A stretch of DNA of 64,000 nucleotides, taken from positions 1 through 64,000 of the forward strand of contig CADBYS010000001.1 in assembly GCA_902798965.1 (NCBI GenBank). Direction: 5' to 3'. Positions within the stretch are counted from its first letter, which is position 1. Each line of letters starts with the position of its first letter. The position numbers were made by a program, and so were the translations under genes. The notes under the pieces are model-generated. The model was given only the letters and a program-made list of their open reading frames with translations, did no database searches and was not told the DNA's origin. The stretch comes from an uncultured Bacteroidales bacterium (lineage in GTDB: Bacteria > Bacteroidota > Bacteroidia > Bacteroidales > Paludibacteraceae). Shown here one piece after another: positions 1,061 to 45,455 of the stretch.

Positions 1061-3151
1061 CTAACTTATTATTTTTGCCAACGTTGTATCCGTAAATGTC
1101 TGCCAAATATCAAGATGTACTTTCTTATAGTCAGGGAAGAGTTCTTTGACAAACTCTATCTCAAATACAAGTCTGAAATCGTTCGGATCATTGTCCGGTT
1201 TCCCTTCCTTGCGCGTGCCAACGCGAGCGACCTTTATGAAGTACAAATCTTTTATTCCCTTGCCTTTAATATAGGGCATGAAGTAGTACAATTTGTTAAG
1301 TGCAACGGTTGAGGGGAACTTCTTGCCGGTATAGTAAATTTTAGCAGACTGATCCAAATATTGCTCCATGTTATCAGCTTTAACTAATGAGACAAGGAGG
1401 TTTTTAGTAATATCCGGGTTATCAATCTTAGGTTGTGCATCCGCTGTTGCATTATTCACTATCTGTTCAGGATATTGCTCTAACAGCGAAAACAAATCTA
1501 ATGCCTCTATCAACTCTTTCGGTTTCTTTTCCTTTTTGGTAGATTCAAGTGCTTCGCGTGTCAATCTTCTCTCTATTAACTTCTTCCATATTGAACGTGC
1601 CGTCTTAACCTCTGCTTCTGAGAATCCCATACCCTGACGTAATAAAACCTCATCGGTGATGTTCAGTATCTCGTCCGGTGTCTTTTTGTCACGTAATAAT
1701 TGATCCAGTTTATCGAACAATTCAGCATTCTGCTCACGATAAGGTATGTATATGCCTCCCACTTCACTTGGCATTAGTTCTAAACATCCACCGCCAAAAT
1801 TCCTGCCAAGTATCTCTGCAAATGCGAATGATAAAGAGTTATAATAACTTGCAACTAATGCTTTCTTGTTCACTCCTTCGCGAATGAATACGCGGTGCAT
1901 AGTGTCAGTGGTATAAGCACCGGCTTCATTCAGAACAAACTTAGGATACATGTAATTCCGGCGCAAGAACAAGGCATCAGATAGCTTGATAGAAGGAATA
2001 ACATACCAGTCGTCTCGGATGCCGGTCTTGTAACCCTTGTTAATTCCCTCTTTCTCGCCATTCTGGATGTATGTCCGTACTCCTTCGTTGCTATTGGTCT
2101 TGGCATTGGGAGTGAAAACGAGTAAATGCGCTTTTGCTTCTGCACTTACATTGTTTCGCCAGTCCTTTGGAGTAAAGCACAAACTATTGACTTGTACACT
2201 TCTGCCAACCATCGGCCGTGCGTATTCTTCCAACTGATACATCTTGACAACCGAATCGGGAACTGTGAAATAGTTGTTGGCACCGGTAGTTATTCCAACC
2301 TCCACATCAGCGAACGCGGAAAGCGTCGGCATTTCGGAATTTCTTACTTTCTCCAGCAGAGCCAATTCGTTGGCATCAAGAAAATAATATGTCCATTTGT
2401 CCGTATGGAAATCAATATGCTTTGTCGGGAATTTCAGTTGGCGCGGATCTAATTGCGATAAAGCATCTGCATCCTTTACTTCCAAGTGCTCAATCAAATG
2501 CTCATCTGTGCCATTCTTCTCGCATAACAAGATAACTACTTCCTGCTGAATCTCTTCAAATACAAGATTCTCAAAAGAAATAATGTTAATCTTGTTAAAT
2601 GTAGAGGCCAGATAGTGTCTTAATTGCTTGGCATAACTTACTTGCAGCAGCTCCGAAGGCAGAACAAAACCGATTTTTCCTCTTTCTTTCAGTAATTGAC
2701 TGCAACCAATAACAAAAGTTACCCAGGAATTAGTGAGTTTGGAACGTTTCAATCCGACATTTTTGAATATCTCACCGGCTAACTCTTGTTGTTTGTCATC
2801 GTAATACTGGTATCTGATGAACGGAGGGTTTCCTACCACCAAATCAAACCGCTTTTTGCTATTCAAACAGAATTGGTGGAAGTCCGATGTAATAACCTCT
2901 GAATCATGCAGACCGATAGAACGTGCTTTTTGCGCCTCGACCGCTTCATATTCGACGGCTGTTACTGAATGGAACAACATGTGCTCAACGCGTAAGCATT
3001 CAAGGAACACACCATCACCGCAACTGGGTTCAAGGATATCAGCATCATGTCCTCCATTGATGCCCCAATGAAGGATAAAAGAAGCTATTTTAGGTGGAGT
3101 ATAATAGGCTCCCCTAAGCTTTTCTGATGATGCCTCGTTAATCAGTTGCAT
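1061..3151 (-). CDS. Adenine-specific DNA methyltransferase (Eco57I/TaqI-like class)
   Basis: A 696-residue enzyme of the gamma-class N6-adenine methyltransferase fold, expected to transfer methyl from S-adenosylmethionine to adenine in a specific DNA site. Visible motifs: GAYYTP (residues 14-19, motif X), ILEPSCGDGVFL (39-50, SAM-binding motif I) and VVGNPPF (105-111, catalytic motif IV). The middle and C-terminal parts look like a TaqI-type target-recognition domain followed by a roughly 150-residue tail (ending near IWQTFTDTTLAKIIS). Its start overlaps by 14 bp the end of the interrupted restriction-modification gene, so both were one transcript. The Eco57I system similarly pairs a bifunctional enzyme with a separate methyltransferase. 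Upstream transcription is now cut by the prophage, so expression may depend on a promoter inside the element. Confidence 0.85.
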   Translation of the reverse strand: MQLINEASSEKLRGAYYTPPKIASFILHWGINGGHDADILEPSCGDGVFLECLRVEHMLFHSVTAVEYEAVEAQKARSIGLHDSEVITSDFHQFCLNSKKRFDLVVGNPPFIRYQYYDDKQQELAGEIFKNVGLKRSKLTNSWVTFVIGCSQLLKERGKIGFVLPSELLQVSYAKQLRHYLASTFNKINIISFENLVFEEIQQEVVILLCEKNGTDEHLIEHLEVKDADALSQLDPRQLKFPTKHIDFHTDKWTYYFLDANELALLEKVRNSEMPTLSAFADVEVGITTGANNYFTVPDSVVKMYQLEEYARPMVGRSVQVNSLCFTPKDWRNNVSAEAKAHLLVFTPNAKTNSNEGVRTYIQNGEKEGINKGYKTGIRDDWYVIPSIKLSDALFLRRNYMYPKFVLNEAGAYTTDTMHRVFIREGVNKKALVASYYNSLSFAFAEILGRNFGGGCLELMPSEVGGIYIPYREQNAELFDKLDQLLRDKKTPDEILNITDEVLLRQGMGFSEAEVKTARSIWKKLIERRLTREALESTKKEKKPKELIEALDLFSLLEQYPEQIVNNATADAQPKIDNPDITKNLLVSLVKADNMEQYLDQSAKIYYTGKKFPSTVALNKLYYFMPYIKGKGIKDLYFIKVARVGTRKEGKPDNDPNDFRLVFEIEFVKELFPDYKKVHLDIWQTFTDTTLAKIIS

Positions 3152-4370
3152 ATAAATCTTTGATTATAGGTATGAGTGCTACTGTTGATTCATCCATTCC
3201 GTATAACGTATTGATGGCTTGCTGTTGTTCCGCTTTTAGAGCGTCAAACTGCCGTTGTAGCGGAGTTAGTCTGCGTGCGTTTCCTGCATTTTGCGCAATC
3301 TTATCACCTAATACAATCAATCTCTTTTGGCGGTTTACAATATCGTCATGCGCATTCTTCTCATCAGCATTTGCAAAATCAATTCTTCGTATAGGAAGTT
3401 GTTTGAGGACTTTGGTGCCTCGCGCAATAAACCCGCCGCGGAATATCTCTCCATACAACGAAGCCAACCATTCCCCTTGGATAGAACCAAGAATAGCCTG
3501 AATGTAATATATCGAATAGGGATTGCCCTCAGGAACACTAACAAGACAATATCCGGCAGTTCCTCCGGAAGATACTAATGTCCCTTTGGTATCTACTGCA
3601 TATTTGTCACATTGGGAATTAACACCAACAATCAATTTCTCATTGATCTCACATGCTTCAAGGCTCTGATGCCTTCCATAACGATGCCATTCGTTAGGTG
3701 TAGTCGGAGTGGGTTTAATATCGCGTGATGGATGGTCTAATTTGTGCTTAACTACTTGTAAATATTGGTACAGGTATGGGTATTTCCGTTGTATCGTACT
3801 CAACGGGATAATATCCAAACGCTGGTTATGTTTCTTATACGGGAAAATAACGCGCGCATTAGGCTTAAACGTGCGGTAGGTATTAAGGCTATCAACTCCT
3901 CTTACGGTCTTGAAATAGGGTTTTGTAACGGCTTTCTCTACTTTGTACTCATGCCCTTGATACATAAAATAGTAGCATGTCGCATCTTCTCGTGTGGGTT
4001 GGAAGATATATTCGTTGTTAGCACTTGTTTGTATGCCGTTGAAAATATGATCTTCTCCTACAATATCTACGAGATTTGCGCTTTGTGCTTTAATCTGTGA
4101 TAATACAGGCAAAAGATTATCAGGACAAAGAACCCATGTCTCTCCTTTAAACGCAGAAATATTTCGTGTGCCCGTTGTTGCTCCATTTGCCACATTACGA
4201 ACTTTCCATTTTGCGAAATCGCTTATCTCGGTATACGTAAATTGGGTTTGAGCACTCTTCTGTAACAGGAGAATGCATGTGTAGTTCGACTTGTCGGCAA
4301 ACACTTGATATGCACCAAACGAGGTAATAGATTTCAGACTACGTGCTTGTATGATAGATCCGAGGATATC
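3138..4370 (-). pseudogene. C-terminal half of type IIG restriction-modification enzyme, split by the prophage
   Basis: The open frame runs from the element junction (GAT codon 4370-4368, directly preceded by TGA inside the element) to the stop at 3138: 410 residues. The longest ORF with its own start uses GTG at 4304. The junction-proximal sequence (DILGSIIQARSLKSITSFG, then AYQVFADKSNYTCILLL) is what normally follows the NPPY and KFMK region of Eco57I-like enzymes, and the remainder is a TaqI-like C-terminal recognition domain. It has no SAM-binding motif I or NPPY motif; these are in the matching fragment at 43674-45455. Both fragments are in frame with the same GAT codon. Alone this fragment cannot be a methyltransferase. 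It could be made from GTG 4304 as a free recognition domain if the prophage end supplies a promoter. Confidence 0.88.
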
Positions 4371-4512
4371 TCATTTTTCAAGGCTTTAAGTATGTTACTT
4401 TAATAGCGACATATTATGTCTTTAGCCTGAATCCTAATTACAAACCTTGTTAGCGGTTTATAATAAGAATTTTATTTCAAGTTCATTTTGCATTGACACG
4501 ATTTTGACCCGA
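4368..4512. other. Left attachment region with integrase arm-like site
   Basis: The junction trinucleotide ATC at 4368-4370 is followed, about 130 bp inside, by TTTTGACCCGA (4502-4512) and a degenerate copy (TTGACACGA, 4493-4501). The same 11-bp motif is tandemly repeated three times near the right end. Repeats placed inside both ends of an integrated element are the usual layout of integrase arm-binding sites. The crossover core itself shows only about 3 bp of identity between the two ends. Confidence 0.6.
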
Positions 4513-4557
4513 TTTGAAACCTTAAAAAAAGGCAGGTCAAATGCCTCGTGCCTACAC

Positions 4558-4573
4558 TGCGGACGCTTCCGCA
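4558..4573. repeat. Inverted repeat in the left element end
   Basis: TGCGGA-CGCT-TCCGCA forms a 6-bp stem. It lies between the arm-like site and the first promoter and has no T-run, so it is more likely a protein-binding site or a structured leader for leftward transcription than a terminator. Confidence 0.35.
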
Positions 4574-4712
4574 ACTCCTTTATTTAGTGCAAAATCTCCT
4601 TTTTGTCCCATTCTATCTGCTTGATAGGTTGGGCATTATTTTTATGTGTTTATCATCACTAAAATAATTTTAGCCTTTTCAATTTTTTTTAGTGTTCTAA
4701 AAATTTTTTAGG

Positions 4713-4787
4713 GTACTAAAATTATTGTAATAATGCCCCCTTTGAAGGCTAATTCCTTGCAAAAGAGGGTAAAAAATAGTAATTTTG
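4713..4787 (+). promoter_or_regulatory. Early promoter with operator-like element
   Basis: TTG (4757-4759), 20 bp, TAATTTTG (4780-4787) fits the host promoter consensus and lies about 45 bp before the first phage gene. Upstream, 4713-4735 reads GTACTAAAATTATTG followed by TAATAATG. A near match (CTAAAATAATTTGAATTATG) lies upstream of the promoter at 15269, so the two promoters probably share a regulator. An additional related GTTCTAAAAA is at about 4694-4703. Confidence 0.6.
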
Positions 4788-4829
4788 CACTTGTTTTCAG
4801 TTTGCAAAGGTAAACTTTTTTTTTGACAT

Positions 4830-5048
4830 ATGCAAGAAAATAAGAAAAAATCGACCAATTTTAGTGATTTTATCACGAATTTGAGAGTTTCGCAGCACAC
4901 TTTGGTGAGAAAAGCCATACTTGATGAGTGTGAAGTATCACGCACCACCTTCTCCAAGTGGGTGAGAGGTGCTGCTGTTCCCAGAGCTACAAATCAAAAA
5001 ATAATAAATCAAATCGCAACTAATTATGGCTATCACAATGTGTATTGA
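4830..5048 (+). CDS. Small helix-turn-helix regulator
   Basis: A 72-residue basic protein starting at the ATG 4830. Residues about 18-60 (RVSQHTLVRKAILDECEVSRTTFSKW and on) have the spacing of a lambda-repressor/Cro-like helix-turn-helix, with SRTTFSKW as the likely recognition helix. It is the first gene of the element, directly behind the early promoter and its operator-like sequence, which suits a lysis/lysogeny or early-gene regulator. The fold is inferred from sequence pattern and no dimerisation domain is visible. The element shows no larger CI-type repressor, so this gene and the next are the best candidates for that function. Confidence 0.65.
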   Translation: MQENKKKSTNFSDFITNLRVSQHTLVRKAILDECEVSRTTFSKWVRGAAVPRATNQKIINQIATNYGYHNVY

Positions 5049-5093
5049 AGAAAGTAGTCTAACTAATTCATTCACTAACAAAATTAAACGATT

Positions 5094-5294
5094 ATGAAAT
5101 TGGTAAATTATTTTCTTCAACAGTATCAGAAGATGTCGCGGCGTGACTGTCGCAAATTCAAGGAGGAATGTATGGCTTATTTCGATTGGACGGAGCAGAC
5201 ATTCTACAACAAAATCAACAATGGCAATTTGCGTCCCAATGAGGAGAAAGACCTTATGAAGATGATTGCCAAGTATTTCCCTAATCAAAACTAA
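5094..5294 (+). CDS. Small putative DNA-binding protein
   Basis: A 66-residue protein, basic in its N-terminal half. Residues 14-50 (MSRRDCRKFKEECMAYFDW, then TEQTFYNKINNGN) resemble a helix-turn-helix in which TEQTFYNKINNG would be the recognition helix and turn. It follows the first regulator by 45 bp and precedes the next gene by 6 bp, so the three probably share the early transcript. It may be a second member of the switch, but no family assignment is certain. Confidence 0.55.
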   Translation: MKLVNYFLQQYQKMSRRDCRKFKEECMAYFDWTEQTFYNKINNGNLRPNEEKDLMKMIAKYFPNQN

Positions 5295-5300
5295 ACAAAG

Positions 5301-5633
5301 ATGGAAAAAAGACCGAATTACTTTGTGTTTTCCTCGCCTTATGAACAAGAGGAAACGGATTACAAAACCTGCTTTATTGTGGTGAACATTCCCGATAAAG
5401 AGGTATTCTCATTTTGTGATTACATAGACAAGAACACACTATTATCCGCAGACGGATTTGTCAAACAAGACTATTTCTACACAACCATTAGCAGGTTTGT
5501 TGCTTGCAGTGTGGTCGAAGTCCACATCAAAGAGGGAACGCCTTTGGAAGGACTTGTCTGTGAAGAGATAGCAGAAGCTGTAACACGAAAGTATCTCCAA
5601 GAACACGGACACACCGTAGAGCTATCCTATTAA
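5301..5633 (+). CDS. Hypothetical early phage protein
   Basis: A 110-residue acidic protein with alternating beta-like segments (YFVFSSPY, KTCFIVVNIP, VVEVHIKEG) and a C-terminal helix (CEEIAEAVTRKYLQEHG). No motif is recognised. It is placed 6 bp after the preceding small gene and 21 bp before the primase, so it is part of the early replication transcript. A role as a replication accessory protein is inference from position. Confidence 0.6.
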   Translation: MEKRPNYFVFSSPYEQEETDYKTCFIVVNIPDKEVFSFCDYIDKNTLLSADGFVKQDYFYTTISRFVACSVVEVHIKEGTPLEGLVCEEIAEAVTRKYLQEHGHTVELSY

Positions 5634-5654
5634 GTTCTCACATCTATTCCTCTG

Positions 5655-8600
5655 ATGATTGCACGAGAAGTAATAGATTTAGTTAGACGACGAGCCGATA
5701 TATCGTCCGTTGTCGGCGAGTATTGTACTCTGAAACGGAGCGGCAGTCGCTTGACTTGTTGCTGTCCGTTCCATAATGAGAAAACACCCTCGTTCTTTGT
5801 CAATCCTAATCGTGGCACTTGGCGTTGTTTCGGCGCATGTGACGAGGGAGGTGATGTCATCTCTTTCGTGATGAAGAAAGAGGGCGTGAATTTTGATACA
5901 GCCGTGCGGACGCTGGCAAAAAAACATGGTGTACACATCGAGGAGGCTGATGAACCTACGGCAGAGCAGCATCAGCAAGCCCTCAAAAAGGAAGCCTTAC
6001 TGGTGCTGTATGCTGCTGTACAGAAATTCTACGAGCATAATCTTTATGCTAATGACCCCAAGGCTAAAGCAGCACTTAAATACGCTTGCGAGAGGTGGGA
6101 TAAAGATTATGTCCGGGAAACGGGCATAGGTTATGCCAACGCCGACTGGCAAGGGCTTATTAACTATGCCAAGGCTCACTCACTACCCCTTAATCTCCTC
6201 AAAGAGGTGGGACTGGTATCTGTTTCCGAAAAGGGCAACCGCGAATATGATTTTTTCCGTGAGCGGCTGATGATACCAATCCGTAATCGGTACAACCAAG
6301 TTATAGGTTATACCGCACGAACGCTGTCCGATGACAAAAGCGTACCCAAATACATCAACTCCAAGACCTCTGACCTCTACCATAAGGAAAAAAGTATCTT
6401 CGGCATTGATGTTGCTTGGAGAGCAGCCCTCAAAGCCACGCATTTTGTCCTCGTTGAGGGCGCACCCGATGTTATGCGCCTGCAACTCATTGGCGTCTAT
6501 CAAGCAGTCGCTTGTTTGGGCAGCCAATGGACGGACGAGCAGTTCGAAATTCTCAAACGCTATGCAACCACACTGATTTTTGTGCCGGACATTGACCCAC
6601 CCAAAGAGGGACAGGCTTTCGGTACTGGTATTGATAAAGTCCTGAAGGCAGGGGAACGGGCTTGGAAGCAGGGATTTACCGTTTTTATCAAGGAAATTCC
6701 CCACGAGAGAGGCGATGAGAAACGCGATGCCGGTTCTTACTTCAAGTCTAAAAAGACCTATGATGATGTGGAACAACAAGAGTTCATCACTTGGTATGCT
6801 AACAAGCGAGTAAACGCTTCACAGATGTTCAACACCGGCAACACACCTGTTGATGATATTGCCGACCTATTGGCTGATGTTGAACAGGAACACGAGATTG
6901 ACCGGTACATCAATCTCTTGCATGATGTCATCAAGGGCAAAGGCATGTGGCGCAAGGCTGTCACGGAAGCCAAACGCCGCAAAAGCTCTGCCACTCTCAA
7001 AGAGGAGAGCAACACCTTGCACCTTGATCTGTTTGAGAAATTCGGCTTTCAGGAGAAGAACCACGCATATATTACCATCAATGCGAATGGCAAGCCCATT
7101 CACTGGTCGAATTTCGTCCTGCATCCTCTGTTTCATATCAAAGACAACATCTCCGCTTTGCGCCTGTTTGAGATAGAGAATGAACACGGACAGAAAGAGA
7201 TTATAGAGTTTAAGCAGGAAGACCTCGTTTCTCTGACAAAGTTCAAACAAAAGGTGGAGAGCCTTGGCAACTACGTTTGGCTGGCGAAAGAGGAACAGCT
7301 TACCCGGCTTAAACTCTATCTTTATCGCACCACCGAAACGGCAGAACTGATAACCCAACTCGGCTGGCAGAAAAAAGGCTTTTTTGCCTTCGGAAACGGT
7401 GTGTACCACAACAATAAGTGGCAGCCGGTCGATACGTTCGGCATTGTCAAACTCGGAGACACGGGCAACTTCTACTTACCTGCTTTCTCATCTGTCTATA
7501 AAGATGACGCGCAGCTGTATCAGTTTGAGCGCAATTTCGTTCACAATAACTGGAGCGCAATCCCTTTGCGCGATTATTGCAACCAACTTATTGAGGTGTT
7601 TGGCGACAATGCCAAAATAGGTATCTGCTTTTATTTGGCAACCCTCTTTCGAGATGTCGTTACCGCACAATCCAAGTCCTTCCCTATTCTCAATCTCTTT
7701 GGTCCTAAAGGCTCGGGTAAATCCGAACTCGGACACTCGCTGATGTCCTTCTTTATCATTGAGAACACACCGCCCAATATACAAACCTCCACGCTACCGG
7801 CATTGGCTGACGCTGTTGCACAGTGCGCCAACGCCCTTGTGCATATCGATGAGTTTAAGAACACCATCGACATCGACAAGCGTGAGTTTTTGAAAGGCTT
7901 GTGGGACGGTGCCGGTCGTAACCGGATGAATATGGATAAGGACAAGAAACGCGAGGTCACAAGGGTGGATAGTGGCGTTATCCTCTCCGGACAGGAGATG
8001 GCCACCGCCGACATCGCTCTGTTTTCGCGCTTCATCTTTTTGCGCTACAACAAGTCGGAGTTTACCGCCGAAGCCAAAAAGAAGTTCGACCAACTCAAAG
8101 ACATACGGAAATTAGGTTGCACACACCTTACCTTGCAACTGCTGCAACATCGTGCTTTCTTTGAAGCCAATTTCAAAGAGGCTTACGCTCGTGCATCGCG
8201 CGACATTCAGGACGCTCTCGGTGACACTATCATCGAAGACCGAATCCTTAAAAACTGGATTATACCTGTTGCCGCTTTCTGTTGTTTGCAAGATAAGGTG
8301 GATTTGCCCTTTGATTATGCTGACATTTGCAAGGTCGCTCTGCAGGGACTAATCGAGCAGAACAAGGAACTGAAGCAGAACAATGAGATTTCCGTATTTT
8401 GGGATATTGTTGATTTTCTCCGGCAAGACGGACAAATCTCTTTCGGTGCGGACTATCGCATTGAGCATTTTACAAAGCTCAAAGTCGATGAGGGAAACGT
8501 GGCGCAGGAGTATGCCTCGCCCAAGCCGGTGCTGCTGCTCAAATACAAGCGTATCTTTGAGCTGTACCAACTCCACGCCAAGAAAATCGGTGAAACGCTG

Positions 8601-8924
8601 CTGCCCAAGACATCGCTCGCTTATTATCTGGAGAACTCGCCTGCTTATCTCGGCAAAAAGAAATCGGTACGTTTCAAGTATGTGGTACGCGGCAACCCTG
8701 TCACCACCATTGAAACGGTCAACGGCAATCCCACGCAGGTTGACCAGTCCACGGTGGACCAAGCCTATTGTTTTGATTACACGATGATAAAAGAGCAGTA
8801 CGGTATCAATTTGGAGGTATCGACTGCCAACATTAACGCCGACCTTCCCGAGGAAACGGAGGAGCAAGAAACTGATGAAGATGATGAACCACCACAACCA
8901 AGACAGACGGAATTTGGCTTTTAG
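5655..8924 (+). CDS. Primase-helicase replication protein (CHC2 zinc finger, Toprim, P-loop ATPase)
   Basis: A 1089-residue fusion expected to make primers and unwind DNA at the phage origin. N-terminal DnaG-type zinc finger: C37, H40, C58 and C62 in CCPFHNEKTPS and WRCFGACDEGG. A Toprim-like catalytic segment follows at about 260-310 (FVLVEGAPDVMRL, then LIFVPDIDPP). The C-terminal half carries an ATPase with Walker A FGPKGSGKS (about 681) and Walker B ALVHIDEF (about 725), as in phage and plasmid primase-helicases. The C-terminus is acidic and glutamate-rich. The iteron-like array directly behind the gene supports origin recognition by this protein or a partner. The length is typical of such fusions and no frameshift is seen. 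Confidence 0.9.
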   Translation: MIAREVIDLVRRRADISSVVGEYCTLKRSGSRLTCCCPFHNEKTPSFFVNPNRGTWRCFGACDEGGDVISFVMKKEGVNFDTAVRTLAKKHGVHIEEADEPTAEQHQQALKKEALLVLYAAVQKFYEHNLYANDPKAKAALKYACERWDKDYVRETGIGYANADWQGLINYAKAHSLPLNLLKEVGLVSVSEKGNREYDFFRERLMIPIRNRYNQVIGYTARTLSDDKSVPKYINSKTSDLYHKEKSIFGIDVAWRAALKATHFVLVEGAPDVMRLQLIGVYQAVACLGSQWTDEQFEILKRYATTLIFVPDIDPPKEGQAFGTGIDKVLKAGERAWKQGFTVFIKEIPHERGDEKRDAGSYFKSKKTYDDVEQQEFITWYANKRVNASQMFNTGNTPVDDIADLLADVEQEHEIDRYINLLHDVIKGKGMWRKAVTEAKRRKSSATLKEESNTLHLDLFEKFGFQEKNHAYITINANGKPIHWSNFVLHPLFHIKDNISALRLFEIENEHGQKEIIEFKQEDLVSLTKFKQKVESLGNYVWLAKEEQLTRLKLYLYRTTETAELITQLGWQKKGFFAFGNGVYHNNKWQPVDTFGIVKLGDTGNFYLPAFSSVYKDDAQLYQFERNFVHNNWSAIPLRDYCNQLIEVFGDNAKIGICFYLATLFRDVVTAQSKSFPILNLFGPKGSGKSELGHSLMSFFIIENTPPNIQTSTLPALADAVAQCANALVHIDEFKNTIDIDKREFLKGLWDGAGRNRMNMDKDKKREVTRVDSGVILSGQEMATADIALFSRFIFLRYNKSEFTAEAKKKFDQLKDIRKLGCTHLTLQLLQHRAFFEANFKEAYARASRDIQDALGDTIIEDRILKNWIIPVAAFCCLQDKVDLPFDYADICKVALQGLIEQNKELKQNNEISVFWDIVDFLRQDGQISFGADYRIEHFTKLKVDEGNVAQEYASPKPVLLLKYKRIFELYQLHAKKIGETLLPKTSLAYYLENSPAYLGKKKSVRFKYVVRGNPVTTIETVNGNPTQVDQSTVDQAYCFDYTMIKEQYGINLEVSTANINADLPEETEEQETDEDDEPPQPRQTEFGF

Positions 8925-9033
8925 GCAAAGCCTGTTTCGGTCTTTATTTCCCAATTTTTGGAGTGCGCTGCTCGGGAGAGTCGCGCACTTTTTTTGTCTG
9001 CGAAGATATGTGTATCAACTTTTGAAAATGCCA

Positions 9034-9168
9034 TTCTACAAATTCTACAAATTCTACATATTGAAAAACAGCGCATTGCATTTTCTACGCTGTTCCACAT
9101 TTTTCTACAAAGTTCTACAAACCACTTTGAGGTACTCTGATTTTCTACATTTTTCTATAATTTCTACA
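9034..9168. repeat. Iteron-like TTCTACA array, candidate replication origin
   Basis: Seven perfect TTCTACA copies start at 9034, 9043, 9052, 9103, 9113, 9143 and 9162, with one-base variants at 9083, 9093 and 9153. Spacing is 9-10 bp within three clusters, and clusters start about 30 bp after the previous copy, so all sit on one face of the helix. Two inverted copies (TGTAGAA) follow at 9181 and 9232. The stretch is AT-rich and noncoding and lies 110 bp after the primase-helicase gene. From 9240 to 9660 I see no gene or clear signal other than a GGGACAC at 9314. Confidence 0.7.
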
Positions 9169-9660
9169 TTATTTTTATTTTGTAGAAAATATATAATACT
9201 TATTTTCAAGCATTTACGTTTCGCAGATGTTTGTAGAACGTGTAGCGGGGTGACTATGGTACTTATACGCAAAAAATTTTTCTTTCTCTGCGAAACTGGT
9301 TTGCTATCCGGATGGGACACTTGGACTATCATCTTCAGTGAAACTTGGTCTATATTCATTTTCAGTGAAACTGTTTTCTTTTGGGCGTTCCCCTACGGGT
9401 CGGGCTATGCAGGGGTGTCCGTCCTCGATGATTTTCCACGTTGCAGATTCCCGTTGGTCGTTTGCAATGTTGCAGAACATCTCACACCGCTTCGCGTCCT
9501 TACTATCCCTAACGCATTCTTTCGGCTTTCTCTGCTGATTGGCTTTACTGCGGCTCATCAAACGATAATTCGGTATAACTGCAACATATTGCTGACTTGG
9601 ATTTTTATGATGTTGTTACTTTCCTGCGTAGTCGTTACTGTTTCCGAGTTTGTTGAATTG

Positions 9661-10381: not shown

Positions 10382-10385
10382 ACCA

Positions 10386-10415: not shown

Positions 10416-10421
10416 GCAAAT

Positions 10422-35954: not shown

Positions 35955-35972
35955 ACAAAAATTACTGTTATT

Positions 35973-38900
35973 ATGTCAGACTATACAAGTAACACCACCG
36001 TCAATCTACAAGTGAACGGACAACAAGCAGAGGAGACACTGACGAACTTGCGTAAGCGTGCCGCTGACCTGCAAAACGAGATTGCAAAGGCAGCAGCCGC
36101 AGGCGATAAGGTGCAACTGAAACGCTTGCGCCGTGAGTTTAATGATGTCAATAGGCAGATTAAGCAGATAGAGAGTAGCACAATGCAGGCAGAAAATGTC
36201 TTGCGAAGATTAGATAGAGCCACGCCCAACGAACTGAACAAGGCTTTGCAGACACTGACAAAGCAACTCAATTACATCGAGAGAGGTTCAGCCGCTTGGG
36301 ACGCACAGACACGGAAGATACGTATGGTTAAGGATGAGATAGCCCGCGTCAATGATGAGATGAGAAAAAGCACCACTTGGCTTGAACGTTTCAATAACAA
36401 GTTTGCCGAGTGGCAGACGATAGGTGCCGGAGCAATAGCAGGTCTGACCGGTGCGGTGATGGCAGGCAAGAAAGCCGTGCAGATGTATGCTGAAATGCAG
36501 CAGGAAGAAGCCAATGTCCGCAAGTACACGGGAATGACCGAGGAGCAGGTCAATCATCTTAACGAAGCGTTTAAGAAGATTGACACGCGCTCCAGTCGTG
36601 ACCAACTCAATAAGTTGGCACAGGAAGCCGGACGATTGGGCAAGACATCGGAAGAAGATGTGCTTGGTTTTGTGAAAGCAGCCGACCAGATCAATGTCGC
36701 CCTTGATGAACTTGGTGACGGAGCGACGCTGACGCTCTCCAAACTCACCAACATCTTCGGGGACGAGCAACGCCTTGGAACGGAAAAGTCTTTGCTCGCG
36801 GTCGGCTCTGTCATCAATGAGCTTTCACAGAACTGCACAGCATCGGCTTCGTACCTTGCGCAGTTTGCGCAGCGTCTTGCCGGTGTGGGAGCGCAAGCGG
36901 ATATGACCATCCCGCAGATTATGGGCTTTGCCGCCGTTCTTGATAGTCAAGGTCAGAAAGTAGAGATGTCTGCTACCGCGTTGTCTAAACTCATCATGAA
37001 CTTGTTCAAGGACACGGACAAGATTGCCGCCGCCACGGGGCTTGACCTTGAAAAGTTCAATGAGGCATTGAGCAGATCCACCAACGAGGGTCTGCTCATG
37101 CTGATACAACGCTTGCACGACCTTGGAGGTATTGATGTCCTCGCCCCGGTGTTCAAAGACATGGGCGAGAACGGAGCAAGAGCGTCCGCTGTGATCTCCG
37201 CTCTTGCCGGAAACATCGATATGGTCATCTGGGAGCAGGAGGAAGCGCAGAAAGCCTTTGAGGAAGGAACTTCGGTCACAAAGGAGTTTAACGTGCAAAA
37301 CACAACAGTACAAGCAGGGCTTGACAAAGCACGCAAAGGCTTTCAGGAGATGGCTATTGCTCTCGGTCAGGAACTCATGCCGGTTATGCGGCATTTCATC
37401 AGCAGCACATCAGCCACAATGCGTCTGATGTTGAAGTTAGTCACGTTCATCAAGGAGAATAAGGACGCTATCAAGACACTGGCAGCAGCTGTGGCCACCT
37501 ATACGGTAGCCGTTAATCTTGCGCTCATCAAGGAGAAACTACATGCCGGACTGATAGCCGTCAAGACGGCTGCAATGCACGTTCATCGTGTGGCTGTATT
37601 GGCTTCTTCGGTTGCCTACAACCGACTCACGGGAAACGTGACACGAGCCAATGCCGCAATGAAACTGCTGAATGCCACGATGAAGATGAACCCTTGGGGT
37701 TTGCTTGCAGCCGCTATAGTGACAGCAGGCGTGGCACTGTATAACTTCATCAAGCGGCAAAGAGAGGTCTCTGCCGTGGAGAAAGAGATGAAGTCCATTC
37801 AGGATGACATCATACGCCAGTATGCCGAGCAGAAAGGGAAGATTGACCGCCTGACAGCAGCCGTCAATGATGAGAAACGCTCGCTTGTGGAGAGACGCAA
37901 AGCCTTGCAGGAACTGCGCAAGATTGTACCGGGGTATCACACGGAACTGACTGCCGAGGGCAAACTGATACGAAACAACAAGGAAGCCATCGAGGACTAT
38001 CTTGTTGCCCTCAATAAGGAGATTGCGCTGAAGGCTTATCAGCAGAAACTGGAGGAGGCTTATGCGAAACGTGCAGAGTTAGAGATGAAACTGGATGAGC
38101 AGACCGCCGACAGGGATGAGAAGAAAGCGGCATGGAGCAGTATGACTGTTGCCACAGACCGCGCAGGAAATAAGCAGGTCAGTTCGGCTTTTAAGAAAGA
38201 TATTGCTTGGAACAAGTATCTTTCCGCCGATAAGGATGTCAAGAAAACATCAGCCGCTTTGCAGGAGGTGGATGACATCATCGCCGCTATCAATAAGAAA
38301 GTGGGTGAGTATGCCGACGGTATGCAGCAGGTCAAGACCATTACGGAGGAGGTAGAGGAGGAAACGCCGGTTATCGTTCCGACTCCGGATGACAAGGACA
38401 CGAAAGCCCCCAAGAACAAGTTCCAAGCCGAGGACGATTGGCGAGAGGAACAGGAGGCATTGGCTCGTATTGATTATGCAAAGGGCATAACCGACTACGA
38501 GACCTTCACCAAGAAGATGTTGCAGATAGAGGTGAACTATCACAACAAGAAACTGCAACATAAAGACCTTGAAGGAAACGAGGAGGTGACTATCCAAGCC
38601 GCGTATTATGAGGCATTGAAAAAGCAGCAAGACAATCACCTAAAGGGCACTGCTGAACAGGAAAACGAAGCCTATCAGCAGCAGTTGATTATCTTGCAGC
38701 AGCGTTATGTGGACGGAGAGATGACGGCTCGCCAATATCAGAACGCCACGGAACTCGCCGAGTTGCAACATCTTCAGAACCTCGTCAATCTCTATAAGGA
38801 GGGAAGCAAGGAGCGACTGAAAGCCCAGCAGAACTATCAGCGCACCTCGCTCAAGTATCAGGAACGGCATGTGCAAGAGGACAAGCGTTTGCAGGAGCAG

Positions 38901-40034
38901 CTGCAATCGCAGTTCTTCACCAAGTCCTTCCATATAGCAGACCCCGACAGCTATGAGCGTGATTTGCGAAACGTGCAAATCGTCTATAATCAAATGCTCA
39001 AAGCCGCCGGTGACAATGCCAAGGAACGGCAGAAAGTGGAGCGTGCTTTCCATGAGGCCAAGTACCAACTTGCACACAAGTATAACATGAAAGAAGCTGC
39101 AGAACAGGAAAACGCTTTCCGTTCTGCTATCGACAGCAGCGTAGAGTGGCTGCAATCAGATGGTGGGCAGGCTATGGTGCAGACTTTTGACATGCTGGTT
39201 AATCAGATGTCGCAGATCTTCTCCTCGCTTTCCGAAATCGTGCAGGCAGAGTTGGATATCCAAACGGCTATGATAGAGAAACGGTATGCAGACGCTATAT
39301 CAGACGCAGAGGGCAACAAGTATCGTGAGGTGCAACTGGAGAAGCAGAAGAACCGCGAGATTGCCAAAGCCAAGCAGGAAGCCAACCGCAAGATGTTTGC
39401 AATGCAGGTTATTCAAGCCGTTGCACAGACTGCCACATCCGCTATTGCTGCATACTCATCGGCTGCAGCAATTCCTATGGTCGGCTTTATCATGGCACCT
39501 ATTGCAGCAGCAATGGCCGTTGCTGCCGGAGCAATACAGATTGCGTCCATCAAGAAGCAGCAACAGGCATCCGAAGCCACCGGCTATATGGAGGGAGGTT
39601 TTACCAAAGCCGGACGCAAGGACGAAGTGGCAGGTGTAGTTCACGCTGGAGAGTGGGTAGCCTCGCAAGCATTGGTCAATTCGCCGGAAGCACGCCCCTT
39701 GATAAACGCCCTTGACTATGCACAGCGCACAAATACTATTGCTTCGCTTAAAGCAGAGGATGTTTCCCGGACTATCACAGCACCTGCAGTGATTGCCGAG
39801 AGACTGTCATCGCAAGGCTCTATCGGCTCATCGATCAGCAAGGCATTGCCTGCCGTTTCCCGAAACACGGAGAAACAGGACAACTCGCTTGGCGACACGC
39901 TCGCTCGTTTGGCAAGCCGCCTTGATGAGCCGTTTGTGACAGTGAACACCGTCAGCGGTGACATGGGCATCAAGAGAGCACAGGATGAGTATGAGCAGCT
40001 GATGAAGAACAAAACACCCAAATCCAAACGCTAA
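35973..40034 (+). CDS. Tail tape measure protein
   Basis: A 1353-residue protein that sets tail length and is ejected ahead of the DNA. Residues 1-150 are coiled coil (TNLRKRAADLQNEIAKAAAA). About 155-440 match the TP901-type tape measure core (EEQVNHLNEAFKKIDTRSSR, SKLTNIFGDEQRLG, VIWEQEEAQKAFEEG). Hydrophobic helices follow near 480-500 and 575-590 (WGLLAAAIVTAGVALYNFI) and about 1140-1190 (AMQVIQAVAQTATSAIAAYS, VGFIMAPIAAAMAVAAGAI). Charged coiled coils lie between. At roughly 0.15 nm per residue, this predicts a siphovirus tail near 200 nm. The next gene overlaps its stop (TAATG). Confidence 0.9.
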   Translation: MSDYTSNTTVNLQVNGQQAEETLTNLRKRAADLQNEIAKAAAAGDKVQLKRLRREFNDVNRQIKQIESSTMQAENVLRRLDRATPNELNKALQTLTKQLNYIERGSAAWDAQTRKIRMVKDEIARVNDEMRKSTTWLERFNNKFAEWQTIGAGAIAGLTGAVMAGKKAVQMYAEMQQEEANVRKYTGMTEEQVNHLNEAFKKIDTRSSRDQLNKLAQEAGRLGKTSEEDVLGFVKAADQINVALDELGDGATLTLSKLTNIFGDEQRLGTEKSLLAVGSVINELSQNCTASASYLAQFAQRLAGVGAQADMTIPQIMGFAAVLDSQGQKVEMSATALSKLIMNLFKDTDKIAAATGLDLEKFNEALSRSTNEGLLMLIQRLHDLGGIDVLAPVFKDMGENGARASAVISALAGNIDMVIWEQEEAQKAFEEGTSVTKEFNVQNTTVQAGLDKARKGFQEMAIALGQELMPVMRHFISSTSATMRLMLKLVTFIKENKDAIKTLAAAVATYTVAVNLALIKEKLHAGLIAVKTAAMHVHRVAVLASSVAYNRLTGNVTRANAAMKLLNATMKMNPWGLLAAAIVTAGVALYNFIKRQREVSAVEKEMKSIQDDIIRQYAEQKGKIDRLTAAVNDEKRSLVERRKALQELRKIVPGYHTELTAEGKLIRNNKEAIEDYLVALNKEIALKAYQQKLEEAYAKRAELEMKLDEQTADRDEKKAAWSSMTVATDRAGNKQVSSAFKKDIAWNKYLSADKDVKKTSAALQEVDDIIAAINKKVGEYADGMQQVKTITEEVEEETPVIVPTPDDKDTKAPKNKFQAEDDWREEQEALARIDYAKGITDYETFTKKMLQIEVNYHNKKLQHKDLEGNEEVTIQAAYYEALKKQQDNHLKGTAEQENEAYQQQLIILQQRYVDGEMTARQYQNATELAELQHLQNLVNLYKEGSKERLKAQQNYQRTSLKYQERHVQEDKRLQEQLQSQFFTKSFHIADPDSYERDLRNVQIVYNQMLKAAGDNAKERQKVERAFHEAKYQLAHKYNMKEAAEQENAFRSAIDSSVEWLQSDGGQAMVQTFDMLVNQMSQIFSSLSEIVQAELDIQTAMIEKRYADAISDAEGNKYREVQLEKQKNREIAKAKQEANRKMFAMQVIQAVAQTATSAIAAYSSAAAIPMVGFIMAPIAAAMAVAAGAIQIASIKKQQQASEATGYMEGGFTKAGRKDEVAGVVHAGEWVASQALVNSPEARPLINALDYAQRTNTIASLKAEDVSRTITAPAVIAERLSSQGSIGSSISKALPAVSRNTEKQDNSLGDTLARLASRLDEPFVTVNTVSGDMGIKRAQDEYEQLMKNKTPKSKR

Positions 40035-41902
40035 TGGAAATCTATATCAACAACCAACTTGCCGCCATTAAGAAAGGCAGCAGTTTCGATTATGTAGCGG
40101 AGAACCGCTATTTTTCCGGAGCAGACAGCTATACGCTCGCTATAACTTTTCCGCTCAAAGATTGTCCGCAGAACATAGCTATCTTCGGACATATCAACCG
40201 CAAGGATGTACAGGCGGAGAACCTGCTTTTTAACTGTGAGATACGAGATAAAGCCTTTGTGCAATATGGCTCAATCACGGTTACGGAGATTTCGGAAACG
40301 GAAGTCAAATGCCAGTTCCTTGAAGGGCGCAGCGTGCAGAACTTTGCTGTCACCTTTGATGAAATCTACATCAATGAGTTGGAACTCGGTTACCCGGACA
40401 CCTCGCGAAGCCACATGGTTTGTGAATATCCCTACATACGCGATTATCGCTATGGGCAGGGTTATCTTGCCATCCCTTGGGTGAACAACAACACCGGCAA
40501 CATTCAGAACAAATGGAAAGCACATCACACCCTTTGGGCTGACCGTGTACAAGGCTTGTCGTATCAAGCCTATATGTGGTATATCGTTCAACTGATATTC
40601 CAAAAACTCGGTTATACTTGCAACCTTGATGAGTGGAAACAACATTACAAGTGGGGTGCATTGCTCTGCTGCAACACGCTCCCTTACGCTTGGGGCATAC
40701 GCAACTGGGCGAGAGCCTTGCCCCATTGGACGCTCACCGAGTTTCTGGAGCAGTTGGAACTGCTGATGAATTGTGAGTTTGACATCGACCATGGAACAAA
40801 GACCATTGTTTTCTCTTGGTCATCGAATAATTTTCTTGCAGGCGGACACGTGGAGATAGACAACGTGGTCGATGAGTTTACCGAAACGCCTGCCAAAGCA
40901 GAGGAAAGCAAGTACAAGGCAGAGATGGAACGCCAATATGCAGAGTGCAGTCATCGTATGTGGAAATATATGGTGTGCCCTGCCGCCATTGATAAGATGT
41001 ACACCTTTGCCACCGATGTCTATACGCGCGTCCAATTCGACAATATGGCTGCAATGGTATCGGCACTTAAAGCCAACTATGAGCATTTGGACAACTACAA
41101 TATGACCGGCTTCCCGTTCAATCGCTTGTACTATGTGCGTGATGTGGATATGTACTTTGCCATGCGCATCTATAAGCGCAAAGCCACTTGGCAAAGCACT
41201 TACTATCTCTATGAAATGGAGTGTACGATGCAAGCCCTCAACTCGTTTTGTCCGACAGACCCCAAAGCGGAGCAAGCCGAGGAACTGAAGATAGTCCCTG
41301 CTTGGCTCGATGAGGTCATCAACGACAACAAAGGCGTGAAACACCTTTGTCTGTTTCTTGATTGCCCGGACATGCAAATCAATGACGGACAAAACGACCC
41401 CGATGAGCAAGCCAATGACCCCGAGGAAAACAAGGAGTTTTTTATGAGCGATTTCAACTCAATGCCCTGCTTTTATGCCGCACAGGATGAGAGTGCCAAA
41501 ACGCAGGAGTTTTTCGATAAAATCTATGTGGCGTTTTGGGCGACTTATGCCAACGGCACACCCAATCTTCCGGAAGAAGATTACAACGACTTCATACGTT
41601 GGCCCGTGCCTGTGCGTGACCGCGCCGAAGTCGATTTGGATTGGACCGTTTGGCAGAATGATGAGTTTTCACTGCGCTTCAACGATAACGACAGCACCAA
41701 CTTGTACATCAAGCATATTGACCCCACACGCAAATATACCTTCAAGTGGATTGCAGACACTATCCCCAATCCACGTGCCGTTTTCCATATCCGGGGACGC
41801 AAGTATATTTGCGAGAAGATAACTGCCACGTTCACCACCGAGGGCATGTCCCAACTGCTCAAAGGCGACTTCTATCCCATGGTAGAAGACAGCGATATGT
41901 AG
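40034..41902 (+). CDS. Tail-tip or baseplate protein
   Basis: A 622-residue protein immediately after the tape measure gene, the usual place for distal tail or tail-hub proteins. It starts MEIYINNQLAAIKKGSSFDY and has an N-terminal beta domain (DSYTLAITFPLKDCPQNIAIF, VEFLEGRS-like VKCQFLEGRSVQ). It is rich in Tyr and Trp (LWADRVQGLSYQAYMWYIVQ). The C-terminal part is acidic with a beta look. No catalytic motif seen. Assigned by position and composition. Confidence 0.65.
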   Translation: MEIYINNQLAAIKKGSSFDYVAENRYFSGADSYTLAITFPLKDCPQNIAIFGHINRKDVQAENLLFNCEIRDKAFVQYGSITVTEISETEVKCQFLEGRSVQNFAVTFDEIYINELELGYPDTSRSHMVCEYPYIRDYRYGQGYLAIPWVNNNTGNIQNKWKAHHTLWADRVQGLSYQAYMWYIVQLIFQKLGYTCNLDEWKQHYKWGALLCCNTLPYAWGIRNWARALPHWTLTEFLEQLELLMNCEFDIDHGTKTIVFSWSSNNFLAGGHVEIDNVVDEFTETPAKAEESKYKAEMERQYAECSHRMWKYMVCPAAIDKMYTFATDVYTRVQFDNMAAMVSALKANYEHLDNYNMTGFPFNRLYYVRDVDMYFAMRIYKRKATWQSTYYLYEMECTMQALNSFCPTDPKAEQAEELKIVPAWLDEVINDNKGVKHLCLFLDCPDMQINDGQNDPDEQANDPEENKEFFMSDFNSMPCFYAAQDESAKTQEFFDKIYVAFWATYANGTPNLPEEDYNDFIRWPVPVRDRAEVDLDWTVWQNDEFSLRFNDNDSTNLYIKHIDPTRKYTFKWIADTIPNPRAVFHIRGRKYICEKITATFTTEGMSQLLKGDFYPMVEDSDM

Positions 41903-41910
41903 GCACACTC

Positions 41911-41941
41911 GTTAGCACCAGGTTAAAAACTTGGTGCTAAC
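41911..41941. terminator. Bidirectional terminator between tail and integrase genes
   Basis: A perfect 10-bp inverted repeat (GTTAGCACCA / TGGTGCTAAC) with loop GGTTAAAAACT. It lies between convergent genes and covers the last codons of the integrase gene. T-runs are short, so efficiency is uncertain. Confidence 0.6.
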
Positions 41942-43248
41942 TCATTCAGTTTCTTGAATAGTTCGGGGTCAACGTGGTTGGCGTATCTTGTGGTCATTGA
42001 CAGGTCACTGTGGTCAGCCGCCTGCATCACTGACAAGGGGTCAATACCTGCTTTCAACATACCATTGATACCTGTATCACGCAGGGAGTAGAGTTGCATC
42101 TCCTCCGGAAGATTTATCTCTTTACGCATCGCTTCCCACACATTGCCGAATGTATGGCTTGACATCGGCTTTGTACCGCACCGCCAACATTTGTCGGCAA
42201 ACAAGTAGTCATCCGGCTTCGCGCCCATGATATGTTTGGCAAGCATCTCCTTCAGTTCCTCGGAGAGACGCGCCCTGCGCTCCTTGTGGTTCTTGGTGAT
42301 GTCGGCAGGCATCTCTATACACCCTTCGCCTATATTCACCATATAAGCCTGCAAACGGCTTATCTCCACAGGTCGGATAAGGGAGGTATGCACCAACTCG
42401 CAGATGATGAGATACTGCGGATTGTTTTTTTCAAAGTACTTCCTTATCTTCTTGCGCCACGGCTCGGGAATGATGACACGGGTCTTTTTCTCCTCGCGCT
42501 TGGTCTTGATCTTCTCGAAAGGATTTTCCTCACAATAGCACTTCTCAACCGCCCAACTGAACAAGGCACGACCTTGTTTGAGGTTGTTGTTATATGTGCG
42601 GTTGCTCACAGTGCCGTCATCGTGCTTACGCGCCTTGCCGTTCTTGGTGGCATTATTGCCTTCAAGAACATAGTCCATATATTCCACGGCAAGCCGTTTC
42701 GTGAACTGGTTGCTGCGCAAATCGGGATGTTTGAGGATAATCCATTTCTTCAAGCCATTGCAGAAACTCTCATAGCTGCGCATGGTGTTTTCGGTAAGGT
42801 CGCGTTTCTTGGCATCAAGGAACTTTCGTATCAGCACCAACATATCGACAGAGCCATCATCTATAGGCTTTTGCGGTACAGCCATTGCCGGAGCAGTGGG
42901 GAACTGCTGTACTACAGGCTGTACAACTTGCTGTGTGGGTAGTTGCATAGGCTGCATTACAACCGGCATAGAAGGTTGTACTTGTAGGGGTGAAGAAATT
43001 GCAAAGGGTGACCAACCGCTTGCTAACTGGCAGTTGATTTGAACAATCATCTGCGTTGTCATAGAACGGAACTCGGCAAAGTTCCTAGCTTTCTTCCGTT
43101 CACGATTGAGTTTCATTCTCTTGCGCTCCAATCCATCGGTGATTTGATTGTACGCATAATACTCAATGTAAAATCCATTGGTGTTGGATTTGAGAACTGC
43201 GGGCATATATCTCCGCATTGTTCCAAAATTCAGTTGTACTTCAGGCAT
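41923..43248 (-). CDS. int: Tyrosine recombinase, phage integrase
   Basis: A 441-residue integrase. An N-terminal arm-binding-like region (1-75) is joined by a Q-, P- and V-rich linker (88-125) to a core-binding domain (130-240, ending with YNNNLKQGRALFSWAVEKCY) and the catalytic domain. Catalytic residues in order: R292 (LIRPVEISRL), K319 (ITKNHKERR), R390 in YSLRDTG, H413 in ADHSDLS, and nucleophile Y422 in TRYANH. Tyr387 occupies the place of the usual first His of HxxR. It reads leftward from the right end of the element, next to the right attachment site, and is inferred to have inserted the element into the restriction-modification gene. Confidence 0.92.
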   Translation of the reverse strand: MPEVQLNFGTMRRYMPAVLKSNTNGFYIEYYAYNQITDGLERKRMKLNRERKKARNFAEFRSMTTQMIVQINCQLASGWSPFAISSPLQVQPSMPVVMQPMQLPTQQVVQPVVQQFPTAPAMAVPQKPIDDGSVDMLVLIRKFLDAKKRDLTENTMRSYESFCNGLKKWIILKHPDLRSNQFTKRLAVEYMDYVLEGNNATKNGKARKHDDGTVSNRTYNNNLKQGRALFSWAVEKCYCEENPFEKIKTKREEKKTRVIIPEPWRKKIRKYFEKNNPQYLIICELVHTSLIRPVEISRLQAYMVNIGEGCIEMPADITKNHKERRARLSEELKEMLAKHIMGAKPDDYLFADKCWRCGTKPMSSHTFGNVWEAMRKEINLPEEMQLYSLRDTGINGMLKAGIDPLSVMQAADHSDLSMTTRYANHVDPELFKKLNELAPSF

Positions 43249-43340
43249 TTTTTTTTATCTCCCAATTTTTGCCACAAAGTTTGCAACAGAAATCAGGGGA
43301 TAAAAACCTATATTATATGTTACTATTTCGCTGTTTTGAC

Positions 43341-43373
43341 TTTTGACCCGATTTTGACCCGATTTTGACCCGA
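43341..43373. repeat. Triple TTTTGACCCGA repeat, integrase arm-like sites
   Basis: Three perfect tandem 11-bp copies at 43341, 43352 and 43363, about 300 bp from the right junction and upstream of the integrase start. One perfect and one degenerate copy lie near the left junction in the same orientation. The 11-bp period is about one helical turn. The rest of 43249-43488 holds no gene. Confidence 0.7.
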
Positions 43374-43488
43374 TTTTTGAAATCCTCAAAATTCAGCTCT
43401 TTTTCGGCAGGGGAGTTTTCCCCTAAATTAGGTCATTATTTTCGCGCGTAAGTCGGCAATTTTGGTCAGTTTTTTTCTTATAAAACCA

Positions 43489-43519
43489 AAGAGAATACCT
43501 TATTGCTAAAGTATTCTCT
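43489..43519 (-). terminator. Terminator behind the T-arm array
   Basis: Stem AGAGAATAC / GTATTCTCT with a 12-nt loop, followed on the minus strand by TTGGTTTTAT. It would end leftward transcripts of the truncated restriction-modification gene and the T-arm array before the integrase gene. Confidence 0.7.
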
Positions 43520-43520
43520 A

Positions 43521-43673
43521 TGAGCCTTTGGGCGGACTTGAACCGCCGACTTGTCCATACTATGAGCCACTTCCCGGACTCGAACCGGGGATAGTCTCAC
43601 TCGGAGCCACTGGGCGGACTCGAACCGCCGACTTTTGTCGGGGGTGAGCCACTGGCCGGACTCGAACCGGCGA
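43521..43673 (-). repeat. Four tandem tRNA T-arm-like units at the element end
   Basis: On the minus strand each unit has a perfect 5-bp stem with a 7-nt TTCGAGT or TTCAAGT loop: 43655-43671 (GCCGG/CCGGC), 43613-43629 (GGCGG/CCGCC), 43573-43589 (CCCGG/CCGGG) and 43531-43547 (GGCGG/CCGCC), followed by CAGTGGCTC, AAGTGGCTC or CAAAGGCTC. Spacing is 42, 40 and 42 bp. Stems change by paired substitutions, which argues for RNA structure. D-arm, anticodon arm and 5' acceptor strand are missing, so these are not complete tRNAs. The first unit ends 2 bp from the attachment core. Confidence 0.75.
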
Positions 43674-45455
43674 ATCACGCAGCGGTTGACCCGCACCTAC
43701 CTTCATGAACTTACCGGGGACAATATATCCCAACTCACCACCATCTTTGAGTAAATCGAATGCCCTCTCAATGAACAAGAAGTACTTGTCATATTGCTTA
43801 TATGCACTCGAATACTTAGTCGGATACAAGCGGTGTTCTTCCGGAGTAAAGTTCTTAATGTCCTCCGTTTTTAGGTAAGGAGGATTACCAACAATGAAAT
43901 CGAACTTCCTATCTCCGAAATCAAATGGATTGATAACTTCGGTTAGTTCTTCCGATACGTCTTGAGGCGATAACAAACTGTTGCCAAAGAATATATTGTC
44001 GTCCAAACATGGCAATATAGGATGATATGCATCCAGTGTAGCTGTATCTTCTCCTTCCAAGAGTTTTAATAACAGACCGAACTTACAAGCTTCAACTGCG
44101 TTGTAATCTTTGTCTACGCCATAGATACATTGCGTCAAGAGATTAAGCTTTGTCTCGTATCGCAATTTATAGGAGTTGATGCCGGTACGTATTAACTGAT
44201 CGGGCTTGTTGCAGAGATACCAGTCTATCAGCGTGTCACAGAGTAATTGGTATGCTTCTAACAAGAATGCACCTGAACCACATGCAATATCAGCGCACTT
44301 AACGGAGAGTAATTGTGTTTCATCCATTTGTGCAAGTGGCTCTTGCATAGATTGTCTTAGGATCTCCTTTACAATAAATGTCGGTGTGGTGACAATATCT
44401 CTATCTGCATTTACAGGTTTATTGACAAGAACTAACCCGTTGCCGTCTTTCGCTAACTTTTTCGAAATGAAGATTTCATATATACGTCCCAATATGTCAG
44501 ATGACAAAACAGCAAAGGAGTAAGGACTTTCGGGGAAGTATAATTGTCGGATAATCGTCCAAAAAGATGAACTTACATTGCCGATGAATTCATCGGATAG
44601 TTTTTGCTCGAATAATCCTGAGTTGTATCGCCTATCTGCCTCGCGGAATTTCTCAACGAGTTCCAAATGGCTCTGTGTGTTGGCTATTTGAAGCAAACGC
44701 TGATAGACTTCTATATTCCTGTCTTCACAAACACGCAAGAACAAGATCTTGTTGATATAACTCTGAACAATATCGCCCAGTTCTTCCATATCAACATCCG
44801 GCATATGCGCATATATCTCTTTACCTAAGAGAAGTCTCCACTCATTGATCTGCTGTAGGAATAATTTGTCAACGGGAATATAGTCCACCGTCTGTACGAT
44901 ATGGCTCCATTGCTCATCAAATGAACCGGAATAAACTGCCTCTCTGCTCAAAAGAGCATACAACTCATCAGCAGCATCCACATAATCCGTATAATGATAG
45001 TGCTTGACTTGTGCAGTTAGATTCGTATCGGTATCTTTGACCGCTGTTGATGTGTTGTATATGTATAGGTCTTCAAAGTTGGATAGAACGGATATTTTCA
45101 AACCTGCCGTAAAACCATATCTACGCACTTGCTTGGCAGGCTCATTGTCTTCATTAATATGAACATGCGGTTTCTTCGCTTCCAAAAAGAATTTGCGTTC
45201 TCCGTATAGTCTGAAAGTATAATCCGGTTTTTTGCTATGAGTATTGGCATCTGCGCGCAAAGCTTCTTCTAACAGGACTTCGCGTTCCGCGGTACTTTTA
45301 CCTGCTGCATTGATAATATCCCATCCTAACGCCGTAAACAATGGGTCAAGGAACTCTTGACGCAGCATGGTTTCATTAAATCGAGCAGAACGATAGTATT
45401 CTCTATTTTGCTCATATTTGTCCACTAATGTACGAATCTTATCTTTCATCATCAT
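43674..45455 (-). pseudogene. N-terminal half of type IIG restriction-modification enzyme, split by the prophage
   Basis: 594 codons from ATG 45455 to the GAT at the junction. Reading continues 38 codons into the T-arm array and stops at 43560. N-terminal nuclease signs: KPDYTFRL (PD at 77-78) and FFLEAKKP (E92-x-K94), a PD-(D/E)xK motif. SAM-binding ADIACGSGAFLLEA and the catalytic FIVGNPPYL of an N6-adenine methyltransferase follow, ending at GYIVPGKFMKVGAGQPLRD. The rest (recognition domain) is at 3138-4370. Joined, the enzyme would be about 1003 residues, close to Eco57I. As it stands it lacks target recognition, so the enzyme should be inactive while the prophage is integrated. ATGs at 45452 and 45449 are equally possible starts. 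Confidence 0.9.

Follow-up and report, generated by a model that had tools for sequence, protein, structure and literature searches.

A prophage with a row of tRNA-Thr 3' halves interrupts a type IIG restriction-modification gene at a probable secondary attachment site

In the 64,000-nucleotide stretch of DNA analysed here (the window), one type IIG restriction-modification gene, once whole, is interrupted by a prophage. We are fairly confident that a temperate phage of a tRNA-integrating integrase group, whose nearest relatives sit at tRNA-Thr(CGT), integrated at a secondary site in this Eco57I-like gene. The split gene, the tRNA-Thr sites of the relatives, a free tRNA-Thr in the window's own genome and a row of tRNA tails at the phage attachment end were established directly. 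The evidence for the insertion comes from one assembly and one strain that carries it. The tempting story of a phage aiming at restriction genes gives way to off-target integration, a testable reading, which happens to remove a defence enzyme and keeps the companion methyltransferase gene intact.

Results

One type IIG gene in two parts

The N-terminal half of the gene (minus strand, 43674-45455, 594 codons; part assigned to the gene, 43677..45455) showed the Pfam domains HSDR_N, N6_Mtase and Eco57I, in agreement with the nuclease, SAM-binding and NPPY methyltransferase parts that a first-pass annotation had read from the letters, and matched positions 6-612 of the PADLOC type IIG model PDLC03604. 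The C-terminal half (minus strand, 3138-4370, 410 residues; part assigned to the gene, 3138..4361) covers the rest of the methyltransferase region and the target-recognition region; it had no Pfam match and matched positions 617-1010 of the same model. The halves thus correspond to consecutive parts of one enzyme, which bears out the claim that a 39-kb prophage splits a single type IIG gene. The nuclease, N6-methyltransferase and recognition regions of a type IIG (Eco57I-like) enzyme are all present, the last of them recognised through the PADLOC model alone.

An uninterrupted relative, for which the same annotation had recommended a search, was found in genome G176. Its whole gene shares 811 of 1002 residues, end to end, with the window protein joined as that annotation had proposed; the alignment has a three-residue gap at the junction, and a 701-aa Eco57I-like frame follows the gene. 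At the DNA level, the left flank of the window aligned with G176 over 3.3 kb at 77% identity, to within about 30 bases of the junction. This match bears on whether an assembler wrongly joined the prophage into the gene, which we judge very improbable. The genome is a draft of 51 contigs (2.85 Mb, 90% complete) and repeated tRNA tails might mislead assemblers, but the sequences that adjoin the two prophage ends are halves of a single gene, split at a single point, and the G176 match runs almost to the junction. A single contig also contains both junctions and the intervening prophage genes, and therefore a chimera would need two misjoins.

With its nuclease and catalytic parts retained but its recognition part gone, the truncated enzyme is expected to be non-functional, and restriction would have been lost through the split. 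The loss of the intact enzyme on integration, as previously proposed, follows from this anatomy. At its 3' end the split gene overlaps a companion methyltransferase gene (1061..3151, minus strand; M_Eco57I_C and Eco57I domains), and because this companion is intact, loss of the nuclease-bearing partner should be tolerated. The reading frame of the truncated enzyme runs on through the row of tRNA tails (window 43560-43673) and gains a tail with VRVRPVA repeats; the ORF finder extends the N-terminal half to 43560 because the frame reads into this part of the prophage.

Content of the prophage

The prophage spans about 39.3 kb (4371..43671), with ends uncertain by about 10 nt, and its left end aligns with a prophage in genome G116. 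It encodes a tyrosine integrase of 441 aa (41923..43248, minus strand; Phage_integrase and Phage_int_SAM_5, phrog_1) and, on the plus strand, a DNA primase of 1089 aa (5655..8924) whose N-terminal part matches phrog_6444, a head maturation protease (16394..17440), the terminase large subunit (25100..26848), a lysis amidase (33952..34422) and a tail tape-measure protein (35973..40034). Two anti-restriction-like proteins (13930..15115, plus strand) matched phrog_7245, weakly, and phrog_2059, and an AbiEii/AbiEi defence pair lies at 11338..13052 on the minus strand. In the PHROGs comparison 30 prophage proteins were scanned, many of them without a match. With integrase, head, terminase, tail and lysis genes the element belongs to the temperate tailed phages, although the portal match was weak and no major capsid protein was named.

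The junction and the length of the ancestral protein

Both halves are open, without stops or frameshifts, and an in-frame GAT stands at the junction in each, as the first-pass annotation had noted. Its further claim of a join exactly in frame did not hold. The residues DIL, which follow LR in the proposed join, occur there alone and are lacking in 19 of 19 aligned homologs (18 of them distant, 30-35% identical), and the exact join of about 1003 residues was rejected on this ground. The PADLOC model gives the same picture: positions 612 and 617 flank the junction and leave four positions (613-616) between them. Seven residues stand there in the proposed join, against four (GSII) in a join of homolog length. 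The nine left-junction nucleotides read as DIL (about 4362..4370, minus strand) may thus be phage- or strain-derived; probably they did not belong to the ancestral gene, unless only this strain has them, and the ancestral protein probably had about 1000 residues.

On this reconstruction a homolog-length gene would run CCG CTG CGT GGA TCT ATC ATA (PLRGSII), and the empty site is predicted as CTGCGTGGATCTATC if integration was at a secondary site in a gene for a 1000-residue enzyme. The bases GATTC at the right junction (43672..43676, minus strand) could be of host or phage origin. Alignment of the left end on the spacers of the tRNA-tail array suggests another crossover point and does not give a clean frame, and the left junction is therefore incompletely explained; anchored alternatively on the spacer-like GATATC, the ancestral gene would be frame-shifted. 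We infer the point of strand exchange and that excision could restore a reading frame, and the restored protein would probably differ from the join first proposed.

An alternative interpretation is active lysogeny, in which excision and reintegration of the phage would turn the restriction enzyme on and off reversibly. The open halves agree with this, as do the integrase and structural genes that the prophage has kept; exchange could yield an open gene, and with the companion methyltransferase intact, switching would be safe. However, undecayed halves are equally expected from a recent insertion, the examined relatives of the phage use tRNA genes, and neither an excised form nor a second strain with the phage at this site was seen. 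We regard such a switch as improbable.

Integrase relatives at tRNA genes

The integrase was searched against 358 genomes of the family at a threshold of 1e-20, and 92 genomes matched at 116 places including the window's own (counted by eye). Flanks were examined at 32 of the 115 other places, namely the 31 best-scoring and a truncated copy in G057. In all 32 the integrase start has a tRNA gene next to it on the upstream side, and ARAGORN called 31 of these genes. The remaining one (L221, G119:C20) is a tRNA-Asp at about locus position 2650, whose 3' part is deleted in the assembly.

The three integrases nearest by identity all lie at tRNA-Thr(CGT): G116/L021 at 90% identity, the truncated copy G057/L023 at 82%, and G156/L022 at 73% over residues 1-311, where the contig ends. 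The preference for tRNA-Thr rests on these three, two of them incomplete. The relative second by score, G084, has an integrase 69% identical along its full length and lies at tRNA-Ser(CGA). In G116 the sister prophage lies on two contigs, one with the integrase end and one with the primase end, and its left end is 74% identical to that of the window. ARAGORN misread the tRNA-tail rows of L057 and L163 as tRNA-Ser(CGA), a false call. The tRNA-Ser calls at L060, L069 and L071 were therefore checked, and proved to be genuine tRNA-Ser genes.

The closest viral contig (L024, integrase 89% identical) stops at the integrase start, and no attachment site is therefore visible there. Relatives of the primase were found at 45 loci in IMG/VR, among them L090, which is the same contig as L024. 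The exact left-end pattern occurred in one IMG/VR contig, whose context had no further likeness and which was set aside as chance.

The same survey bears on the suggestion that the attachment site lies in a conserved part of the enzyme that the phage uses generally. The insertion point directly follows the NPPY region, and anti-restriction-like genes are present on the phage, both of which would suit a phage that specifically targets Eco57I-like restriction genes. Yet none of the 32 examined relatives lies in such a gene, all being at tRNA genes, and at the corresponding site the whole homolog in G176 differs, with only 6 of the 10 core bases. General use of the site was therefore not upheld, and on the 32 relatives examined a phage specific for Eco57I-like genes was rejected as extremely improbable.

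The insertion site and the tRNA core

A tRNA search of the window found no tRNA. The element has the tRNA 3' half at its attachment end that is typical of an element at a tRNA site, but it lies inside the type IIG gene and not at a tRNA gene that it restores; the 32 examined relatives do lie at tRNA genes. The tRNA-Thr 3' half at the window junction has no 5' half. The genome's own tRNA-Thr (G000:C27:3767-3839) is intact, and what comes after it is a hairpin and then GH3, cytidylyltransferase and TRCF genes, with no phage.

On its host side the right junction has CTGCGTG; the tRNA has ATGCGTGGGTC. Just 5' of the T-arm the tRNA-Thr of the relatives has AATGCGTGGGTC, and the right junction of the window has CTGCGTGATTC followed by the phage-borne T-arm. 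The directly visible identity between the restriction-gene site and the tRNA core is only TGCGTG. If the reconstruction holds, the homolog-length host site would be CTGCGTGGATC, identical to TGCGTGGGTC in 9 of 10 bases, and TGCGTGG(A)TC would be common to both. The 2.85-Mb assembly contains five copies of the motif TGCGTGGRTC, one of them in the tRNA-Thr, against three for the reversed control. The enzyme gene of G176 has TACGTGCGCA at this place and matches the tRNA core in 6 of its 10 bases (our own count).

With the genome's own tRNA-Thr free and the site resembling the tRNA core, the insertion is therefore read as secondary despite a free primary site. The integrase would take a tRNA-core-like stretch within the type IIG gene as its secondary attachment site. 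At the primary site, the row of tRNA-Thr 3' halves at the phage attachment end would rebuild the tRNA; at the restriction-gene site, the tails do no more than lengthen the truncated enzyme by a meaningless stretch. Counting against integration at a secondary site are the free primary site in this genome, which leaves the phage's location elsewhere unexplained, the position of the second-best relative (G084) at tRNA-Ser, and the dependence of core identity beyond TGCGTG on the reconstruction.

A row of tRNA-Thr 3' halves

The interval between the integrase and the junction contains four such halves in tandem, spaced 40-42 nt from one another (row within window 43515-43676) and all on the minus strand. 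The first, with T-arm and acceptor strand (43646..43671), is at the junction, where the relatives have the tRNA 5' half. The second (43604..43629) is within a block of 37-38 nt identical to rows in G055, G059 and G158. The third (43564..43589) and the fourth, with altered acceptor (43522..43547), are followed by a terminator-like hairpin (43487..43522, minus strand) that closes the row and is also present in G116, G149 and L023.

Similar rows were found elsewhere. In G116 (C74, C92) the tRNA-Thr beside the integrase and its row make four units, counting the tRNA's own, and the other prophage end has two, which suggests from the arrangement that an inner unit was used for integration. In G055:C12 and G158:C68 a tRNA-Thr gene is followed by a second unit, a hairpin and other sequence; G059:C42 has a tRNA-Thr with a longer row running off the contig, and G055:C9 has a longer row that starts at the contig edge and ends in a hairpin. 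G055, G059 and G158 had no match to the window integrase at 1e-20, the one integrase searched. G149:C3, likewise without an integrase match, has two units and the phage hairpin, and G057/L023 has one unit by the truncated integrase; the units in both are probably remnants.

The T-stems of window units 1-3 stand in the same order as in G055:C9. Across nine distinct units, 42 of 45 T-stem cells pair, compared with a shuffle mean of 32.0, and none of 5000 shuffles reached 42; as the units are related, this is not a strict probability. This pairing indicates that the units descend from working tRNAs.

The pattern of two units occurred in 17 of 178 same-genus genomes and its reversed control in 13 (by eye), and alone it therefore says little. 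A three-unit pattern matched in 2 of 393 genomes across the order, the window's genome and G629, and its reversed control in five (by eye). Units whose T-loops are altered escape both patterns. The claim of tail rows rests on six genomes (G000, G055, G059, G116, G149 and G158) whose units share the tRNA-Thr acceptor. In IMG/VR 42 contigs matched the two-unit pattern, 31 of them with an ARAGORN tRNA nearby, and agreement between the two acceptors never exceeded 7 of 10 bases, except in one low-complexity repeat (8/10).

Rows of other kinds were also seen. L167 (G095:C24) and L168 (G097:C223) have a second type with two tRNA-Asp-like 3' halves (GTCCGCACCGC), and no complete tRNA was found in either stretch. 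L170/L231 (G629:C99), of another family, has T-loop-like repeats about 42 nt apart, which are candidate tRNA tails.

Discussion

Repeated integration and excision at different units would shift tails between phage and host. We propose tentatively, as a possibility that we would not yet call probable, that the tandem 3' halves are exchangeable cassettes. Whole tails would be traded by integrase recombination at different units, so that the phage stocks the T-arms of earlier hosts and leaves tails in hosts now free of it; insertion at a secondary site would be a by-product of relaxed core recognition. If so, phages and hosts would be trading tRNA ends as a currency that recombines and records past hosts, and island-finding programs expecting one displaced fragment could misplace ends. 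Judged by title and the start of the abstract, the literature matches listed held no direct precedent for tandem tRNA ends or for prophages in restriction genes.

Comparison with known systems

The Eco57I system has a two-gene layout. The window, where the name comes from Pfam matches, is alike in having a distinct gene for an Eco57I-type methyltransferase after the type IIG gene, and differs in that its type IIG gene is interrupted. For active lysogeny, phiSa3mw in hlb is reportedly an example. It too is a prophage within a coding gene; regulated excision, a feature of active lysogeny, was not seen for the window prophage.

Prophages and islands that integrate into tRNA genes restore the tRNA 3' end, as described in the parts of the Islander paper considered here (PMC4383910). 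The window element resembles the elements described there in its tyrosine integrase next to the attachment end and in the tRNA 3' half carried on the element, and the tRNA 3' fragment at the other end is seen in G116. In contrast, the window element lies outside a tRNA gene and has four tandem 3' halves instead of one.

The Sa3int phages of S. aureus use alternative attB sites when their primary site is mutated, according to the portion of the study drawn on here (PMC8649754). There, as proposed for the window, a tyrosine recombinase acts at secondary sites with poor core identity, and the left and right junctions differ in most cases. The primary site of Sa3int phages in that account is a mutated protein gene, whereas that of the window phage is a tRNA gene, and the tRNA-Thr of the window's genome is intact.
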